Shown one piece after another: positions 5,948 through 61,999 of a DNA stretch of 64,000 bases. Source of the stretch: a virus; IMG/VR virus record IMGVR_UViG_3300036770_006511, positions 1-64,000 of that record. One strand, written 5' to 3'. Under the pieces are notes generated by a model. That model did not search any database. It saw only the letters and a program-made list of their open reading frames with translations, and was not told the DNA's origin. Position 1 is the first letter of the stretch; each line of letters starts with the position of its first letter. The position numbers and the translations under genes are program-made.

Positions 5948-6343
5948 ATGGAACTTATCTTACCCACCAAGATTACGGTCAAATCAAGTGACATACACGG
6001 ATTGGGTGTGTTCGCTACCAAGAAAATTAAGAAAGGAGAAATCATCGAGGAATGTCCACTGATGGTTTTACCAATTGAACCTGGTCAGACAAGTGGTTTG
6101 TTTATGAATCACCGTTTTGCTTGGCCAAAAGGTATCGGTTGGTACCAACACGTTGTTGCGATGGGTTATGCATCCTACTACAACCATTCCGATACACCAA
6201 ACGCAGATTGGGAAAACAACATGGAAAATGGTACTTTCTATTTTCGTGCCCTGACTGATATTAAACCAGGTGAGGAAATTTTTGTTTGGTACGGTGATGA
6301 AAATTACTGGTCAGACGGGCGTTCGGATATTGAAATTAAATAA
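5948..6343 (+). CDS. SET-domain protein, putative lysine methyltransferase
   Basis: A compact 131-residue SET domain, a fold that transfers methyl from S-adenosylmethionine to protein lysines. Visible motifs are the N-terminal strand-turn HGLGVFATKKIKKGE (17-31), the NHSDTPNADW motif (79-88) that corresponds to the cofactor-binding NHS-PN signature, and GEEIFVWYGD (108-117), the position of the catalytic tyrosine motif. There is no pre- or post-SET zinc cluster, as is usual for bacterial and viral stand-alone SET proteins. Its stop overlaps the ATG of the SNF2 helicase gene (TAATG), so the two are probably translated together. The target could be phage or host proteins; nothing in the sequence decides this. 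Confidence 0.85.
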   Translation: MELILPTKITVKSSDIHGLGVFATKKIKKGEIIEECPLMVLPIEPGQTSGLFMNHRFAWPKGIGWYQHVVAMGYASYYNHSDTPNADWENNMENGTFYFRALTDIKPGEEIFVWYGDENYWSDGRSDIEIK

Positions 6344-8097
6344 TGTCGGTTGGAACAACTATAGAATCCAAAGCCATCTCTATTTTAGAGAACTATCAAG
6401 GGGCTAACAATTATATTTTGGGATTAAAACTCAAGTTAGAGAAAAATTCCAAATTTTATCCCACGCGTAGTCAGTCTGAATATATTTTAAACAATCACGA
6501 TAAAAACCCCCTTGTTGCTAAAAAGTGGGTGGTTTTGGATTCTTATTTTGCCAACAAAATTGCCGACGAAAGATTTTTGATGACCATACCCGAAAGGATG
6601 TGGATTGAAAAACTTCTCTCTGAGAAGGACAAAGCATATCACATTTGGGGTAAGTTTAACGAGGGGGACCAACTATCTGACATGTGGATTCCCAAAGCGG
6701 CAATCATTAAGGACAATAAGGTTGAAATTAAAGAAGTGGATTACTCGAAGTATTCACATCGTCCACCATTGGACCACCAAAAGATTGCCATCGAAGAACT
6801 CCTCAAAAACAAAAAGTATATCTTGGCGGATGATATGGGTTTGGGGAAAACAACCTCCACTATAATTGCGTCCTTAGAAACGGGGGCTAAGAAAATCCTA
6901 ATCATTTGTCCCGCATCTCTGAAAATTAACTGGCAAAGAGAATACCAACTCTACAGTGAAAAAATCAGTTATGTTTGCGAAGGAAAAAATTATTCGGAGG
7001 ACGCTGAGATTGTCATCATGAACTATGACATTATCAAAAACTTCCACGATTCAAAAGACAGAAAAAACTCAATCATCTTGAACTCAAAGTTTGATTTGGT
7101 AATCATCGACGAGGCACACTATATTCAAAACGTTCAGGCACAAAGAACAAAACTAATTAACGACTTGGTTAGAGACATTGAAAGATTGTGGTTACTCACA
7201 GGAACCCCTATGACATCTCGACCGATTAATTACTTTAACCTTTTATCCCTTGTGGATTCCCCTGTCGCGAAAAATTGGATGGCGTATGTTGTTAGATATT
7301 GTGCGGGATATCAGTTCAAAGTGGGACCAAGAAAAGTTTGGAACGTGATGGGTGCTTCCAATTTAGAGGAACTAAGAGACAGAACCTCGGCTACAGTTCT
7401 GAGAAGATTGAAAGAAGATGTTTTGGATTTACCCGACAAAATTATCACTCCTGTTTACCTTAGACTTCGTTCAAAAATGTACGAAGAGGTCATGGGTGAT
7501 TACTACAATTGGTACGACAAGAACCCCGATGAAAGTAAAAACCTTTCAATTCAATTTACAAAACTAACTCAAGTTCGACAGGTGATTGCGGATGAAAAGA
7601 CACAACACACAATTGAACTTGCGGAAAACATTGTGGAGCAAGGAAAAAAGGTTATTATCTTCTGCAATTTCACAAAATCACTTGAGGTCATCTGTAATCA
7701 CTTTGGAAAAAGTGCAGTTCGGTTGGATGGTTCAATGAGTAAAATCCAAAGACAAGATGCTGTCGACCGTTTCCAAGAGGATGAAAAAGTAAAAGTTTTC
7801 GTGGGTAACATAAAAGCCGCTGGTGTTGGAATCACCCTCACCGCCGCGGAAGCTGTTATTATGAACGACCTGTCGTTCCTACCCTCAGACCATAGCCAGT
7901 CTGAAGACCGTGCGTACAGATACGGACAAAAAAATAATGTTTTGGTCTACTACCCAATTTTTGAAAACACAATCGAGGGTATTATTTACGACATATTAAA
8001 CAACAAAAAAAGAATTATTGCCACAGTCATGGGTGACACACCCGATGAAACAAATATTGTTGAAGAAATTTTAAACAGTATCAATCAAAGGAGATAA
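6343..8097 (+). CDS. SNF2-family DEAH helicase/ATPase
   Basis: The 584-residue SF2 enzyme has both RecA lobes. Lobe 1 has Walker A DDMGLGKT (163-170), CPASLKINW, the DEAH box (256-259) and LTGTP (285-289). Lobe 2 has IIFCNF, RLDGSM, a motif V region NIKAAGVGITLTAA, and motif VI in SEDRAYRYGQ. This set is diagnostic of SNF2 translocases of the SMARCAL1/RapA-like group, which move on double-stranded DNA and remodel or reanneal it. The N-terminal 140 residues have no clear domain. In T4, UvsW does related fork and recombination work, but that protein belongs to a different SF2 branch. Translational coupling to a SET protein suggests a shared task such as repair, fork handling or counter-defence. 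Confidence 0.9.
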   Translation: MSVGTTIESKAISILENYQGANNYILGLKLKLEKNSKFYPTRSQSEYILNNHDKNPLVAKKWVVLDSYFANKIADERFLMTIPERMWIEKLLSEKDKAYHIWGKFNEGDQLSDMWIPKAAIIKDNKVEIKEVDYSKYSHRPPLDHQKIAIEELLKNKKYILADDMGLGKTTSTIIASLETGAKKILIICPASLKINWQREYQLYSEKISYVCEGKNYSEDAEIVIMNYDIIKNFHDSKDRKNSIILNSKFDLVIIDEAHYIQNVQAQRTKLINDLVRDIERLWLLTGTPMTSRPINYFNLLSLVDSPVAKNWMAYVVRYCAGYQFKVGPRKVWNVMGASNLEELRDRTSATVLRRLKEDVLDLPDKIITPVYLRLRSKMYEEVMGDYYNWYDKNPDESKNLSIQFTKLTQVRQVIADEKTQHTIELAENIVEQGKKVIIFCNFTKSLEVICNHFGKSAVRLDGSMSKIQRQDAVDRFQEDEKVKVFVGNIKAAGVGITLTAAEAVIMNDLSFLPSDHSQSEDRAYRYGQKNNVLVYYPIFENTIEGIIYDILNNKKRIIATVMGDTPDETNIVEEILNSINQRR

Positions 8098-8105
8098 TCG
8101 GTAAG

Positions 8106-8124
8106 TTTCTATTATTTATAGAAA
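8106..8124 (+). promoter_or_regulatory. Late-promoter-like box TATTTATA inside a small palindrome
   Basis: TATTTATA (8113-8120) lies 17 bases before the superoxide dismutase fusion ATG. It falls within a perfect 7-bp inverted repeat TTTCTAT/ATAGAAA (8106-8112 with 8118-8124). The box matches those of structural genes; the palindrome may be accidental or an operator. Confidence 0.5.
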
Positions 8125-8137
8125 AATATTAAGGACA

Positions 8138-9664
8138 ATGCAACATATACAAGAACAAGTAGAGAAAATAGAAAATCAAATTCTCCACGAAAAGAAAAGA
8201 GAACAAGCCAAAGAAATTTTAAAAGAAGGAAAAAAAATCGGAATTGAAAAACTACCCTACAGTTACTCAGCGGTAAAGAGGTTTATTGATTCCGAGACAA
8301 TGGATGTTCACTATAACAAACACTACAAAGGTTACGTAGATAAACTCAACAACCTATTATCCAAAAGAAAGGGTGACCACGATTTGGAAAGAATCGTAAG
8401 GAACATATCAAGATATCCTAAGGGAGTAAGGGACAATGCTGGTGGTGCTTTCAACCATGCACTTTTTTGGAACATGTTGTCACCCAAACCACAAAGAGTG
8501 GGTAAAAACTTGATGACAAAAATCAAAAAGGACTTCGGAACTTTTGAAAAATTCAAAAAACAATTTGAAGAAGTTGCTAAACAAAGATTCGGCTCAGGTT
8601 GGGTATGGTTAGTGTTAACCAACAAAGGGACACTAAAGATTATGTCTACCCCCAACCAAGATAATCCATTAATGAATGTAATTGAAGGCGGCGGATATCC
8701 ACTTTTAGGCTTAGATTTGTGGGAACATGCATATTACCTCAAATACCGAAACAAAAGAGATGAGTACATCAACAACTTTTGGACTGTTGTCAATTGGGAC
8801 TTTGTGGAAGATATGTTTTTACTTAAGACTGAGACCAAATTATTAGAATCACAAGAAATGGGTAAATTACTTATGGAGACAAAATCAGAGGCGTGCCCAA
8901 GAAACGAAGTGGAAATCTATCGGGAGTTGTTTAACACAAACACCCGAGCAAGAACCCAATACAAAAACACCATCAACGACATTCTCAAGAGATTGTTTCG
9001 TGACAAATACCACAACAAAAGAGAAAATGGTGAAATACCTGGGGTATATGATTTAGAAAAACCAGGTCGCAGTGTCATCAACTACTTGAACACAAACTAT
9101 TCGGTTTTTTGTATTATGGTCCGTGACCTCAACAGAGTTATCACCAAATCTATGGGTGAAAAACCAATTGTTTTTCAAGGTAAAAGTTACGATGACCAAG
9201 TTCAAGAGATGAAGAGAATGTGTAATTACATCGAGCAATTCAGTAATAGAATTTTCGACCCCAATTCACAAACCTTTCATTCCATAATGAATACTTTGAA
9301 AGAAAAAGATAATATTGGGACTCGTAGAGAACTTACGGCAAAGAACCGAATCATGGAGAGCCTACCGAATTTCAAAGTCTCAGTAACCGCAGGAGCGGGA
9401 AAAACCAAAGACGCGGTACAAAAAATCGACATGGAGGTTATCACCGAAAACGGTAAACGTACTGCACAGGTTAAAGGTTACGACGAAATCTTGGAACAAG
9501 ATGGTCGTTTAATTATGACCAAAACGGGTGAGGTTGCAAAATACAATGTTGATTGGATGGTCTTTGTAAAAGGGAGTAAGGTCGTTGTTTTTGAAAACAA
9601 ATGTGAAATCGAAAAGGGAAACTACGTTTTTGACAAAAAGAGTCTGATATACGATTTGAGATAA
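8138..9664 (+). CDS. Mn-type superoxide dismutase fused to a C-terminal nuclease-like domain
   Basis: Residues about 33-228 are a complete Fe/Mn superoxide dismutase. All four metal ligands are present: H58 (in VHYNKH), H107 (in NHALFW), D193 and H197 (in DLWEHAYY). The gateway tyrosine Y66 and the FGSGW segment are also kept. Gly at 103 and Gln at 174 (NQDNPL) point to the manganese rather than iron type. Residues 1-32 are a charged helix. Residues 230-508 have no superoxide dismutase homology. Their end has the pattern KIDMEVITENGK-RTAQVKGY (starting near residue 420), then VDWMVFVKGSKVVVFENK, resembling the D...QxK core of Mrr-like PD-(D/E)xK nucleases. The gene has a late-type box and precedes a neck protein, suggesting late expression and possibly packaging. 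The dismutase domain is certain; the C-terminal assignment is tentative. Confidence 0.85.
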   Translation: MQHIQEQVEKIENQILHEKKREQAKEILKEGKKIGIEKLPYSYSAVKRFIDSETMDVHYNKHYKGYVDKLNNLLSKRKGDHDLERIVRNISRYPKGVRDNAGGAFNHALFWNMLSPKPQRVGKNLMTKIKKDFGTFEKFKKQFEEVAKQRFGSGWVWLVLTNKGTLKIMSTPNQDNPLMNVIEGGGYPLLGLDLWEHAYYLKYRNKRDEYINNFWTVVNWDFVEDMFLLKTETKLLESQEMGKLLMETKSEACPRNEVEIYRELFNTNTRARTQYKNTINDILKRLFRDKYHNKRENGEIPGVYDLEKPGRSVINYLNTNYSVFCIMVRDLNRVITKSMGEKPIVFQGKSYDDQVQEMKRMCNYIEQFSNRIFDPNSQTFHSIMNTLKEKDNIGTRRELTAKNRIMESLPNFKVSVTAGAGKTKDAVQKIDMEVITENGKRTAQVKGYDEILEQDGRLIMTKTGEVAKYNVDWMVFVKGSKVVVFENKCEIEKGNYVFDKKSLIYDLR

Positions 9665-9670
9665 TCGCGG

Positions 9671-9678
9671 TATTTATA
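9671..9678 (+). promoter_or_regulatory. Late-promoter-like box TATTTATA, 3 bases before the start codon
   Basis: GTATTTATAGGT is followed at once by the ATG at 9682. If this is a -10 element, transcription would begin at or next to the start codon, giving a leaderless message. Confidence 0.55.
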
Positions 9679-9681
9679 GGT

Positions 9682-10800
9682 ATGGCTGTAATACCTGAAC
9701 CCGAAAGAAGTAGAATCTATACCAGACTTCGTCACCAATTAGGTGCCCCACTTCGAGCAGTAGAACTCGAAGATGAAATGCTTGATTCCTTAATGGAGTT
9801 ATCCATTCAGGACTATGAGCAATATACTTTAGATTGGTTAATTGAATCAAATTGGGTCAATTTGGTCAATCTCAATATGAAAGAAAAGTCTGTTGCTCGT
9901 GCTTTAGTTACAAGAACATTTAACTTAGAGGACCAGTTCACTTATGCATATTCCAAAATCGTTGGACTCCAAACTACAGGACCATACGTAATTAAGAAAG
10001 ATTATTTTATTTTAAGTGCAGATACACAATCATATGAAATTCCTGCAGGAAGAGAAGTCAACGAGTTGTTATGGTTTTCGAACCAACCATTTCAAAACTT
10101 AGCTCTTTGGGGGACAACTGACTATGGTTTCGGTGGTTTGGGTTTGGGTGCTAACCAAGCGGGATACGCTCAAATCGGAACTGCTGGTGGTTATTTTATG
10201 ATGAGCGGATTTGATTACCTTATTCGTGCACAAGAAGCTAATATTCTCAACCGCATATTAGGGGGTGCTTTGACCTATAAAATAACTGGTCTTCCCGATG
10301 GTAAAAAACTAATCACTTTATACAACGCACCTGGTTCGAATTTCTCGTTCAGTAATTATTCACAGTATACCGGTAAAGCGGTTTGGTACTGGTACTATGA
10401 TACCGATGGAGATAGTAGAGCACAATGTCTGAAAGACAATCCTGATATTATAAAACTCCCTTCCGATGTCCCTATTGAGGAATTAAGTTGGGAAGATTTG
10501 AACACTCCCGCACAACAATGGGTTAGGAAGTGGTTCACCGCTTACGCTAAAGAAACTTTATCAAGAGTCAGAGGTAAGTTTTCAGGAAACCTCAAAACAC
10601 CTGACTCAGAATTACAGATGGATTATCAATCTTTGGCTACCGAGTCAAAAGATGAAAAATCTAAGTTAGAGGAGGAATTGAAATTGAGATTAGAAAGACT
10701 TCGTCCTGAAAAACAAATGGAAAAAGAAGCACTTCTTGCTGAGAATTTGAATAAACAAATGAGATTTAGGGCCATGCCACGTCAAATTTACGTAATATAA
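9682..10800 (+). CDS. 13: Neck protein (T4 gp13-like)
   Basis: The 372-residue protein opens with a conserved connector pattern, RLRHQLGAPLRAVELEDEMLDSLMELSI, where a short helix bundle precedes the beta domain. Later come QSYEIPAGREVNELLWF, LNRILGGALTYKI and GLPDGKKLITLYNAPG, a run typical of the T4-group neck protein gp13 (T4 protein 309 residues). The C-terminal 70 residues are a charged helical or coiled-coil extension (KSKLEEELKLRLERLRPEK). gp13 completes the head and makes the surface to which the tail attaches. It carries a late-type box almost touching the ATG. Other structural genes of the neck lie nearby on the opposite strand. Confidence 0.65.
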   Translation: MAVIPEPERSRIYTRLRHQLGAPLRAVELEDEMLDSLMELSIQDYEQYTLDWLIESNWVNLVNLNMKEKSVARALVTRTFNLEDQFTYAYSKIVGLQTTGPYVIKKDYFILSADTQSYEIPAGREVNELLWFSNQPFQNLALWGTTDYGFGGLGLGANQAGYAQIGTAGGYFMMSGFDYLIRAQEANILNRILGGALTYKITGLPDGKKLITLYNAPGSNFSFSNYSQYTGKAVWYWYYDTDGDSRAQCLKDNPDIIKLPSDVPIEELSWEDLNTPAQQWVRKWFTAYAKETLSRVRGKFSGNLKTPDSELQMDYQSLATESKDEKSKLEEELKLRLERLRPEKQMEKEALLAENLNKQMRFRAMPRQIYVI

Positions 10801-29801: not shown

Positions 29802-30109
29802 TGCCAGCAAATAACCCCAAGGTTTACGAACCTTTAGATTTAAATCAAACTGAACAAAATAACCTCACAGCAATTGCTGATGTGGAAAGAAAAAAATTAA
29901 TCACCCGTAACGACTTCAAGCAAGGTGCTGATGAATACGGTGTGACAAACCCTCAAGCATTGGCTGATGGTGATGATATGGGAAGAGGTACAGGTGCTTT
30001 TCTTGATGTTTATAACGATGCAGCAGGAACAAGTGTGGATATCTTCGAAAGGAAAGATGATATAAAAATCAACAAATATAACAAATTTAAAACTTACCCT
30101 AACTTCTAA
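29801..30109 (+). CDS. Hypothetical protein, 102 aa
   Basis: Small hydrophilic protein whose start and stop both overlap neighbouring genes (TAATG at each end), a sign of strict translational coupling. Recognisable pieces are LDLNQTEQNNLTAIADVERKKL and DMGRGTGAFLDVYNDAAGT. No membrane segment or known domain was seen. Confidence 0.65.
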   Translation: MPANNPKVYEPLDLNQTEQNNLTAIADVERKKLITRNDFKQGADEYGVTNPQALADGDDMGRGTGAFLDVYNDAAGTSVDIFERKDDIKINKYNKFKTYPNF

Positions 30110-30489
30110 TGAAACTTACTGAAGTCTTCAAGTCATTAATAACTGAAATCGCATCTGTGGATTCGGTTAGAAAATCTATTGAAGACAAACAGAAAATCAT
30201 TATGTACTACGATGGTGATGAACCCGGAGGTCGTGGTTTACGTTTGATTGAGCCCGTAGCCTTAGGTAGAAGTAAAAGAGGTAACTTAGTCTTAAGGGCG
30301 TGGGATGAAGAAGGTGCTTCACACAGGGGTTACTTGGGTACAAGACCAATGCCGGGATGGAGATTATTTAAACTCGATAAAATATTGTCATACAAACCGT
30401 CAGGTGAAAATTTTGATACACCGAGACCAAATTTCAATCCAACTGGTGACAAAGACATGACAAGTATTATTATTATTGCAAAGTTCTAA
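30109..30489 (+). CDS. WYL-like domain protein with capsid-targeting-like N-terminus
   Basis: 126 residues. The N-terminus MKLTEVFKSLITE resembles the capsid-targeting leader of T4 internal proteins (short amphipathic helix ending in I/L-x-E, the gp21 protease site). Cleavage would fall after E13. The rest resembles a WYL domain: an initial helix SVRKSIEDKQKIIMYYDGD, then GLRLIEPVALGRSKRGNLVLRAWD and GWRLFKLDKILSY. In bacterial regulators the WYL module binds ligands or nucleic acid. A packaged WYL protein might act in the infected cell at the start of infection. The domain match is by pattern, not by search. Confidence 0.6.
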   Translation: MKLTEVFKSLITEIASVDSVRKSIEDKQKIIMYYDGDEPGGRGLRLIEPVALGRSKRGNLVLRAWDEEGASHRGYLGTRPMPGWRLFKLDKILSYKPSGENFDTPRPNFNPTGDKDMTSIIIIAKF

Positions 30490-59993: not shown

Positions 59994-61508
59994 ATGTCAA
60001 TTTATCGGTCGTATTTTAGTAGGAACAATACTTTATTATCAAATCTCTATACAAATACTGCAAGAAACCCTGTAGTACAACTTAACTTTGGTAGTTCTGA
60101 TTTAGTAGTACCCAACTTTGGGTTCACCCGTTTTATTTTTGACTTGGACCTTGATGGTCTCAGAGAAATGATTGCCGAAAAGGTTATCTCCACAGGTTGT
60201 ACCACAGGGATGACTCATACTCTTATGATGACCAATACTTCATCGTTTGATGATGAACTTCTTAACACCAATATGAGTGATGGAAGAAAAAGAGCAACAT
60301 CATTTGATTTAATACTTTTTAGAATACCAAAGTTTTCAGGAGATACAGGAACACCACAAATTTGGGATGAGGGTGTTGGATACGATTATAACGACTTCGG
60401 TACAACACAAAATGGAATTTCAGGACAACAGTCATCCATAGAACAATTAAATAACAAGAGTTTTTCATTAAGACCATCAAACTGGTACCAAACAACAACC
60501 GTTACAAATTGGTCAGAGCCGGGAATTTACAACAACAAAAATATCCTCACAGGTTTAACAGGTCTTAACTATTCATCCCTCACCATCGTAGACGAACAAC
60601 ACTTCGAACTTGGTAACGAGGACATCCAATTTGATATGACCAATGAAATAAATGGTATATTAGATGGAACTATAACAGGTGTTACTGGATGGGGGGTTGC
60701 ATATAAACCCGATATTGAAAACATCACAGGACTTACAGAATCATACTCAGTAGGGTTTTTTGGAAAATACACTCAGACATTTTACCAACCATATCTCCTT
60801 ACAGATTACAACGACTTAATACAAGACGACAGAAACCTGTTCCTTAAAAACCAAACCAATAAGTTATATCTCTATGTGTATCAGAACGGAGATTTTGCTA
60901 ACTTGGATAACTTACCTGGTGTAAACATTGAAGACCAAAATGGTGAGGTCGTAACGGGGGGGAGTGGATTGACAACCTGTCAAGTTACAAAAGGTGTGTA
61001 TGAAGTTACGGTTCCCAATATTTTTGTGAATCAACCAGTACCTTGTTTATTCTATGATGTATGGACAGGACTTACCATCAATGGACAGTCTCTACCCAAT
61101 GTTACCAATCAATTTGTTTTACAACAATACAGTGCGGGTATACAAATAGGTAGTCAATCTAAAGAGCCGAGTAAATACGGATACAGTTTCTACGGTATTC
61201 TACAAAATGAAAAGATTTTGAATACTGAAATCCGTAAGATTGGTGTTGTTGCCAAGAAACAATGGACATCTCAACATCAATTAGAAAACATCGACATATA
61301 CTATCGTGTGTATGTAAGGGAAGGTACCACTGAAGTTCAAGTACAGAACTGGACACCAGTAAACCGAACTCCGAACGAGTATTACTTCATTTTTGATATG
61401 AGAGACAAAATTCCTAATGAGTACTTTGTCGATATCAGAGTGAATACAAGTGGTGAGAAAGATATTTATAAAGACACAATTCAATTCCAAATTGTTAACA
61501 AGAAATGA
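59994..61508 (+). CDS. Virion structural protein, probable baseplate/tail component
   Basis: 504 residues, beta-rich, with an opening YRSYFSRNNTLLSNLYTNTARNPVVQLNFG, a long series of Asn/Gly/Thr-rich strands, and a conserved-looking end DMRDKIPNEYFVDIRVNTSG. Such proteins form baseplate wedges or fibre-connector plates in T4-like phages of marine and freshwater origin. No enzyme motif. It has its own late box and overlaps the next gene by 4 bases. Confidence 0.6.
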   Translation: MSIYRSYFSRNNTLLSNLYTNTARNPVVQLNFGSSDLVVPNFGFTRFIFDLDLDGLREMIAEKVISTGCTTGMTHTLMMTNTSSFDDELLNTNMSDGRKRATSFDLILFRIPKFSGDTGTPQIWDEGVGYDYNDFGTTQNGISGQQSSIEQLNNKSFSLRPSNWYQTTTVTNWSEPGIYNNKNILTGLTGLNYSSLTIVDEQHFELGNEDIQFDMTNEINGILDGTITGVTGWGVAYKPDIENITGLTESYSVGFFGKYTQTFYQPYLLTDYNDLIQDDRNLFLKNQTNKLYLYVYQNGDFANLDNLPGVNIEDQNGEVVTGGSGLTTCQVTKGVYEVTVPNIFVNQPVPCLFYDVWTGLTINGQSLPNVTNQFVLQQYSAGIQIGSQSKEPSKYGYSFYGILQNEKILNTEIRKIGVVAKKQWTSQHQLENIDIYYRVYVREGTTEVQVQNWTPVNRTPNEYYFIFDMRDKIPNEYFVDIRVNTSGEKDIYKDTIQFQIVNKK

Positions 61509-61999
61509 AAAAGGTAATCAAACTCAAAGAATCAGATATTAAAAACATTGTACTCAGAGCACTTAAGGAGGCTGAGCACGAACATAATAGATACATGTTC
61601 TTCAGTAATTTAGAACAATTAAAAAGACAAGCCGAGAAGTTGTTGGAATTGGACCATGACCAAATTCATGCGATTTTGGAAAATGGACACGATTGGGCAG
61701 ACGACCATATCACGGTAGCTAAAGAAAACCTTGACCAAGTATTCGATTTTATGATGAATGAGATTGAAGGTAATGGAGAGGAGTTAATGGTTGCTATGGA
61801 TATGGATATAATGGAAGCGAAAAAGAAAAAGAACAAAAAAAAGGCTGGAACTCCGTTATGTGCTAGAGGTAAGGCGGCGGCTAAGGCTAAATATGATGTA
61901 TACCCTTCAGCGTACGCTAACGGATATGCAGTACAAGTGTGTCAGGGTGAACAACCTGGTCTCGACGGTGAAAAAAGATGTTCGGGGGCTTATTGTTAA
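61505..61999 (+). CDS. Packaged-protein candidate with CTS-like leader and basic Cys tail
   Basis: 164 residues. The leader MKKVIKLKESDIKNIVLRALKE is an amphipathic helix ending in L-K-E, which fits the (I/L)-x-E cleavage consensus of T4-type head proteases after residue 22. The middle is acidic and helical (DHDQIHAILENGHDWADDH). The C-terminus has a Lys-rich linker (AKKKKNKKKAG) and the block CARGKAAAKAKYDVYPSAYANGYAVQVC. That block recurs in many uncharacterised T4-like phage proteins. It may carry this basic domain into the head for DNA condensation or delivery to the host. Confidence 0.65.
   Translation: MKKVIKLKESDIKNIVLRALKEAEHEHNRYMFFSNLEQLKRQAEKLLELDHDQIHAILENGHDWADDHITVAKENLDQVFDFMMNEIEGNGEELMVAMDMDIMEAKKKKNKKKAGTPLCARGKAAAKAKYDVYPSAYANGYAVQVCQGEQPGLDGEKRCSGAYC

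Follow-up and report, generated by a model that had tools for sequence, protein, structure and literature searches.

A dismutase-nuclease gene of a T4-like phage that probably encodes a protease-processed head-cargo polyprotein

We analyzed a 64,000-nucleotide stretch of viral DNA (IMG/VR record IMGVR_UViG_3300036770_006511, positions 1 to 64,000; hereafter the window) that contains an open reading frame (ORF) joining a manganese superoxide dismutase to a nuclease-like module. The product of this gene, from a T4-like phage, is probably a head-cargo polyprotein that is processed in the prohead and ejected with the genome. Motifs of the gp21-type prohead protease, (L/I)xE, are found at both domain borders, which suggests cleavage into individual enzymes and not action as a fused one. 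According to this reading, the gene would be expressed late alongside the head genes, and its leader would carry the polyprotein into the prohead core, where a gp21-type protease would cut after E30 and after E237/E247 and thereby free a Mn superoxide dismutase and a PD-(D/E)xK nuclease. Both released enzymes would remain in the DNA-filled head and be injected along with the genome when the next host is infected. In that host, superoxide would be removed by the dismutase, and the nuclease would act on DNA, for example host, plasmid or branched DNA.

Leader and linker motifs were counted on dereplicated relatives (60 ORFs for the leader). In 59 of these 60, an (L/I/V)-x-E motif lies exactly 8 residues ahead of the LPY motif of the dismutase. 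The leader is otherwise variable, and the middle residue of the motif varies freely. A cut after E30 would yield a dismutase with a nearly canonical N-terminus. Behind the dismutase, a paired motif, typically LLES(x5-6)LLxE, occurs in 47 of 54 extended ORFs and is missing in five of six dismutase-only ORFs; the exception, locus L062, retains a single site in a short, vestigial tail. The linker is kept before unlike C-terminal domains, and in L197 the paired element appears again between two tandem nucleases. The full-length model of the window protein has only two long stretches with a predicted local distance difference test score (pLDDT) below 50, and these disordered stretches hold the motifs: residues 23-44 with E30 and residues 233-249 with E237/E247. 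LxE sites exceeded the residue-shuffle expectation in linkers (56 vs 24) and leaders (72 vs 41), whereas the control count inside the dismutase did not (43 vs 46); since the shuffles ignore shared ancestry and the test came after the motif had been spotted, the independent evidence is the retention of sites beside unlike domains. The original prediction had guessed that the protein may be carried in the virion, and with the conserved sites at both borders this guess survives on sequence grounds.

The record that contains the window also encodes a gp21 protease, just past the window (G000, 67493-68209; Pfam E-value 1e-26), a scaffold protein and a gp23-type capsid protein. The capsid N-terminus carries SYLINE|AASTAD, which we take to correspond in place to the FLTE|A cut of T4 gp23. 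T4 gp21 cuts C-terminal to Glu in L/I-x-E (PMC9026906), and it also removes the capsid targeting sequence, a short N-terminal element of the T4 internal proteins (PMC9026906; PMC3012670). No more than this element is needed for foreign enzymes, EcoRI and staphylococcal nuclease among them, to be packaged and delivered (PMC9026906).

By sequence, a complete Fe/Mn superoxide dismutase of the Mn type, with predicted activity, spans residues 36-225. Pfam matched the 508-residue protein with Sod_Fe_N (5e-20, residues 36-115) and Sod_Fe_C (5e-41, residues 123-225), both above cut-off and at full length, and a PDB comparison of residues 1-228 gave Mn dismutases as the best relatives (1gv3, E-value 2e-58). 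The four metal ligands, three His and one Asp (H58, H107, D193 and H197), and the Mn-type signature residues G103 and Q174 were all found where the original prediction had placed them, and the surrounding NAGGAxNH and NQDNP contexts align with Mn dismutases in PDB. The metal-binding motifs are retained in the relatives. Thus, the window protein shares with the Fe/Mn dismutase family the whole domain, all ligands and the Mn-type residues, and differs from it by the added leader and linker and the fusion to other enzymes.

For the second half of the protein, a nuclease-like domain with an Mrr-type PD-(D/E)xK core had been proposed, with structure prediction as the suggested check. The AlphaFold model of the nuclease module, built on an alignment of 19 relatives, is confident (pLDDT 82, predicted template modeling score 0.74) and returned a nuclease fold, not an unrelated one. 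Credible Foldseek matches in PDB are all PD-(D/E)xK enzymes, namely I-Ssp6803I and archaeal Hjc, with RecU matching weakly; the top matches (2ost and 4tkd/1gef) reached probabilities of 0.9-1.0, though with E-values of 4e-3 to 0.1. PD(D/E)XK entries of a viral structure library also match the module. Among the residues invariant in the 19 relatives are G394, E398, G421, D425, D431, Q444 and K446, in the expected order of helix-E, strand-D and QxK. The fold and the residues of the proposal therefore stand, whereas its assignment to Mrr was not supported: there was no Pfam or Mrr-type profile match, and the nearest folds are I-Ssp6803I and Hjc. A PHROG that carries no function (14585) matches the C-terminus at 1e-4. 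Residues 254-508 gave no match in Pfam or in a PDB sequence search, no credible match was obtained when PDB sequences were searched with profiles of this and a second nuclease type (see below), and one scan of GTDB species genomes returned no cellular relatives of the domain. Altogether, the model supports a PD-(D/E)xK nuclease with a family-specific helical domain before the core. It resembles I-Ssp6803I, Hjc and RecU in fold and in the E...D...QxK order, and differs from them by the lack of a detectable sequence match to solved structures, by the extra helical domain (RSxxNxxNTN) in front and by the dismutase fusion. With all dismutase ligands present and an invariant E...D...QxK in the nuclease, both halves look catalytically complete by sequence and model.

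Across the relatives the dismutase is constant, while the surrounding domains are exchanged or lost. It occurs alone (L047), with the window-type nuclease, with a second nuclease type followed by a further domain (L051), and with two tandem second-type nucleases, each preceded by a paired LxE linker (L197:2297-4915, + strand, 873 residues). An N-terminal HExxH domain precedes the dismutase in other forms, either without further domains (L054), with a nuclease (L055, L057 and L073) or with unrelated C-termini (L048 at 7605-9818, + strand, and L077). The motif of this domain is TLAHEWVHEYQ...NEDEANAFA, and its SprT-like matches are weak and sub-threshold only. Profile comparison shows homology between the two nuclease types that takes in the helical domain (178 columns, probability 97.7, E-value 1.4e-12). 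C-terminal extensions of more than 200 residues were counted in 88 distinct ORFs, of which 83 have the nuclease motif and five, of the L048 and L077 types, lack it. One relative that might be taken for a split gene, L125:865-2288 (+ strand), is a single-contig internal deletion with the frame shifted inside the nuclease half, and its cluster-mates are intact.

Nucleases of this family were also encountered outside the fusion. A 290-residue relative stands alone in a metagenomic phage genome of 735 kb, with neither a dismutase nor an obvious LxE leader (L082:5770-6642, + strand). In a 322-kb T4-like record, a free-standing second-type nuclease of 318 residues lies between the prohead protease and scaffold genes (L101:8105-9061, + strand). 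It begins MKITISEGQYKILSE, its leader ends ILSE, a TATTTAT box is located 12 nucleotides upstream, and from its sequence it looks like another head-cargo nuclease. Two small proteins of the window likewise look like leader-bearing head cargo, one starting MKLTEVFKSLITE|I (30109-30489, + strand) and the other MKKVIKLKESDIKNIVLRALKE|A (61505-61999, + strand).

The late-type box that had been noted upstream of the gene is real, but it is TATTTATA read on the sense strand; T4's TATAAATA, of which it is the reverse complement, was replaced by it as the candidate. Ten copies were counted in the window, six on the + strand (8113, 9671, 28532, 55734, 59973 and 61463) and four in reverse (17609, 23979, 41517 and 63453). 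Eight of the ten lie at most 50 nucleotides upstream of an ORF and on its sense strand (binomial P ~1e-11), so positioned that TATTTATA appears to act like the late box of this phage. A TATTTAT(A) box precedes most orthologous ORFs examined, HExxH-fused ones included, and is also found upstream of the gp21, scaffold and core genes. The context of neck genes was borne out as well, the next gene matching PHROG 211 (Table 1). These observations bear on the idea that the protein is an uncut bifunctional auxiliary enzyme of the cytoplasm, the dismutase shielding the host cell and the replicating DNA and the nuclease serving in recombination or host DNA breakdown. The upstream helicase, the intact catalytic cores of both domains and the interpretation of dismutases already known from freshwater phages as oxidative-stress auxiliary genes (PMC6802176) would all suit it. 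We nevertheless consider it unlikely, as it leaves unexplained both the late box in common with head genes and the invariant (L/I)xE motifs at both domain borders, together with the absence of the linker motif in most dismutase-only forms.

Table 1. Positions of the dismutase-nuclease gene, its parts and its neighbors in the window
Feature	Position	Strand	Details and basis
Dismutase-nuclease ORF	8138..9664	+	508 residues plus stop; no internal stops
Leader, residues 1-30, possible capsid targeting sequence; ends L28-K29-E30	8138..8227	+	Fixed motif position; low pLDDT
Predicted site 1, LKE|G after E30	8219..8227	+	L/I-x-E motif (PMC9026906)
Mn-type superoxide dismutase domain, residues 36-225	8243..8812	+	Pfam, PDB relatives, ligand positions
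Predicted site 2a, LLE|S after E237	8840..8848	+	Motif; pLDDT <50 at residues 233-249
Predicted site 2b, LME|T after E247	8870..8878	+	Motif; E invariant in alignment A1
Predicted helical part of nuclease module, residues 254-390, with RSVINxLNTNY	8897..9307	+	Alignment of relatives, model; common to second nuclease type
Predicted PD-(D/E)xK core, residues 391-508 (G394, E398, G421, D425, D431, Q444, K446)	9308..9661	+	Alignment, model, fold matches
TATTTATA, putative late-type promoter box of the ORF	8113..8120	+	25 nucleotides before start codon
TATTTATA, box of neck gene	9671..9678	+	
Neck / head-tail adaptor gene, conserved downstream neighbor	9682..10800	+	PHROG 211, head-tail adaptor Ad2, 1e-10
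SNF2-type helicase, conserved upstream neighbor	6343..8097	+	Pfam

Relatives of the protein are encoded in at least 110 IMG/VR stretches, and the same fusion in dozens of independent contigs rules out a chance fusion or an assembly error. A scan seeded with the adjacent neck gene, not with the dismutase-nuclease protein, returned the 80 closest loci, and in all 80 of them the ORF is directly upstream of the neck gene, usually 15-27 nucleotides apart. At a greater distance, where the neck gene is ~60% identical, the dismutase ORF keeps its place after the SNF2-type helicase and before the neck gene, with few exceptions. The dismutase ORF is a core gene of this phage lineage. This constant place beside the neck gene is what could be expected if the dismutase fold were a structural element of the neck or head, whether cleaved or intact, with its activity secondary; we regard such a structural role as very improbable, since the metal ligands and Mn-type second-shell residues are all retained and the attached domains are freely swapped or lost, unlike those of a structural part.

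The lineage carries the T4-type portal, gp21, gp23 and terminase. Its cultured relatives are distant only, the best named being Flavobacterium phages with a terminase identity of 27%, and from these terminase relatives a Bacteroidota host may be guessed. Both the metagenome sources and the nearest relatives point to aquatic phages. For such phages one might imagine a cargo that stays in the particle, where the dismutase guards packaged DNA from oxidative damage in free water and the nuclease either is kept inactive up to delivery or takes part in head maturation; this would rest on the same processing evidence, but we give it hardly any weight, as the comparable T4 internal proteins are ejected (PMC3012670, PMC9026906) and a nuclease has no obvious use in a full head. 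Two further features of the window were recorded. A SET-domain protein (5948-6343, + strand, Pfam 4e-18) is present only in the closest relatives, and a long run of glycan-synthesis-like genes (~31136-54952, + strand), judged from sequence starts only, includes epimerases, a nucleotidyltransferase, a kinase and aminotransferase-like genes in a T4-like phage.

Several points weigh against a processed and ejected head cargo, besides the two limits of the shuffle test. LxE is a short motif and sits in E-rich segments. The leader of the window protein has ~30 residues vs 10-20 in T4, the residue after the leader site (P1') is mostly Met, not Ala, Gly or Ser, and the leader of L037 has NQ where others have xE. 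Relatives without a nuclease exist (L047, L048, L054 and L077). In the HExxH-fused relatives the leader-like segment lies mid-chain, not N-terminally as in the window protein, and these forms are the main structural difficulty for the leader as a targeting sequence in every member. Finally, a packaged DNase must be restrained or selective, a restraint that the proposal does not explain; options for sparing the phage genome are substrate choice, DNA modification and a metal-poor head.

With the ejected polyprotein still preferred for the window gene, we lean slightly towards a broader picture, in which a widespread T4-like lineage delivers proteins built like beads on a string. Their (L/I)xE cassettes would be cut in the head, the dismutase would be the constant bead, nuclease or HExxH (possible metallopeptidase) beads would be exchangeable, and a single gene would provide a fixed ratio of effectors. 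Dismutases encoded by phages are commonly interpreted as auxiliary metabolic genes. As head cargo, the enzyme would bring superoxide defense at the first moment of infection; this would point to superoxide as a barrier met early in phage entry, a testable idea, and the T4-like head protease would double as a polyprotein processor. The paired (L/I)xE linker also offers a sequence rule by which more injected effectors could be sought in uncultured phages, including a nuclease family that sequence searches of Pfam and PDB do not detect.

The original prediction knew of no described dismutase-nuclease fusion in a phage, and in the open literature searched (subscription papers lay outside the search) we found no report of the fusion, of the linker cassette or of a dismutase as head cargo. 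A database entry named 'superoxide dismutase' from an uncultured Caudovirales phage (A0A6J5L953, 501 residues) matches by length and fold and is probably the same fusion, already public under a name that covers the dismutase only.

Among known systems, the T4 internal proteins IPI-IPIII and Alt share with the window protein an N-terminal leader ending in (L/I)xE, accompanied in the record by gp21 and T4-like head genes, and a fast-diverging cargo on a conserved delivery element. In contrast to them, a single chain here holds two or more enzymes parted by repeated, predicted cleavage linkers, the constant cargo is a dismutase and the leader is longer. Polyvalent proteins of phages and conjugative elements combine many unlike enzyme domains, including zincin-type metallopeptidases, in one injected chain, and their separation on deployment has been proposed (PMC5512222); the words 'dismutase' and 'superoxide' are absent from the main text of that paper. 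The multi-domain chains seen here likewise hold several unlike enzymes, which would be delivered in a comparable way, whereas their separation appears to proceed via a head protease motif and not via a built-in metallopeptidase.
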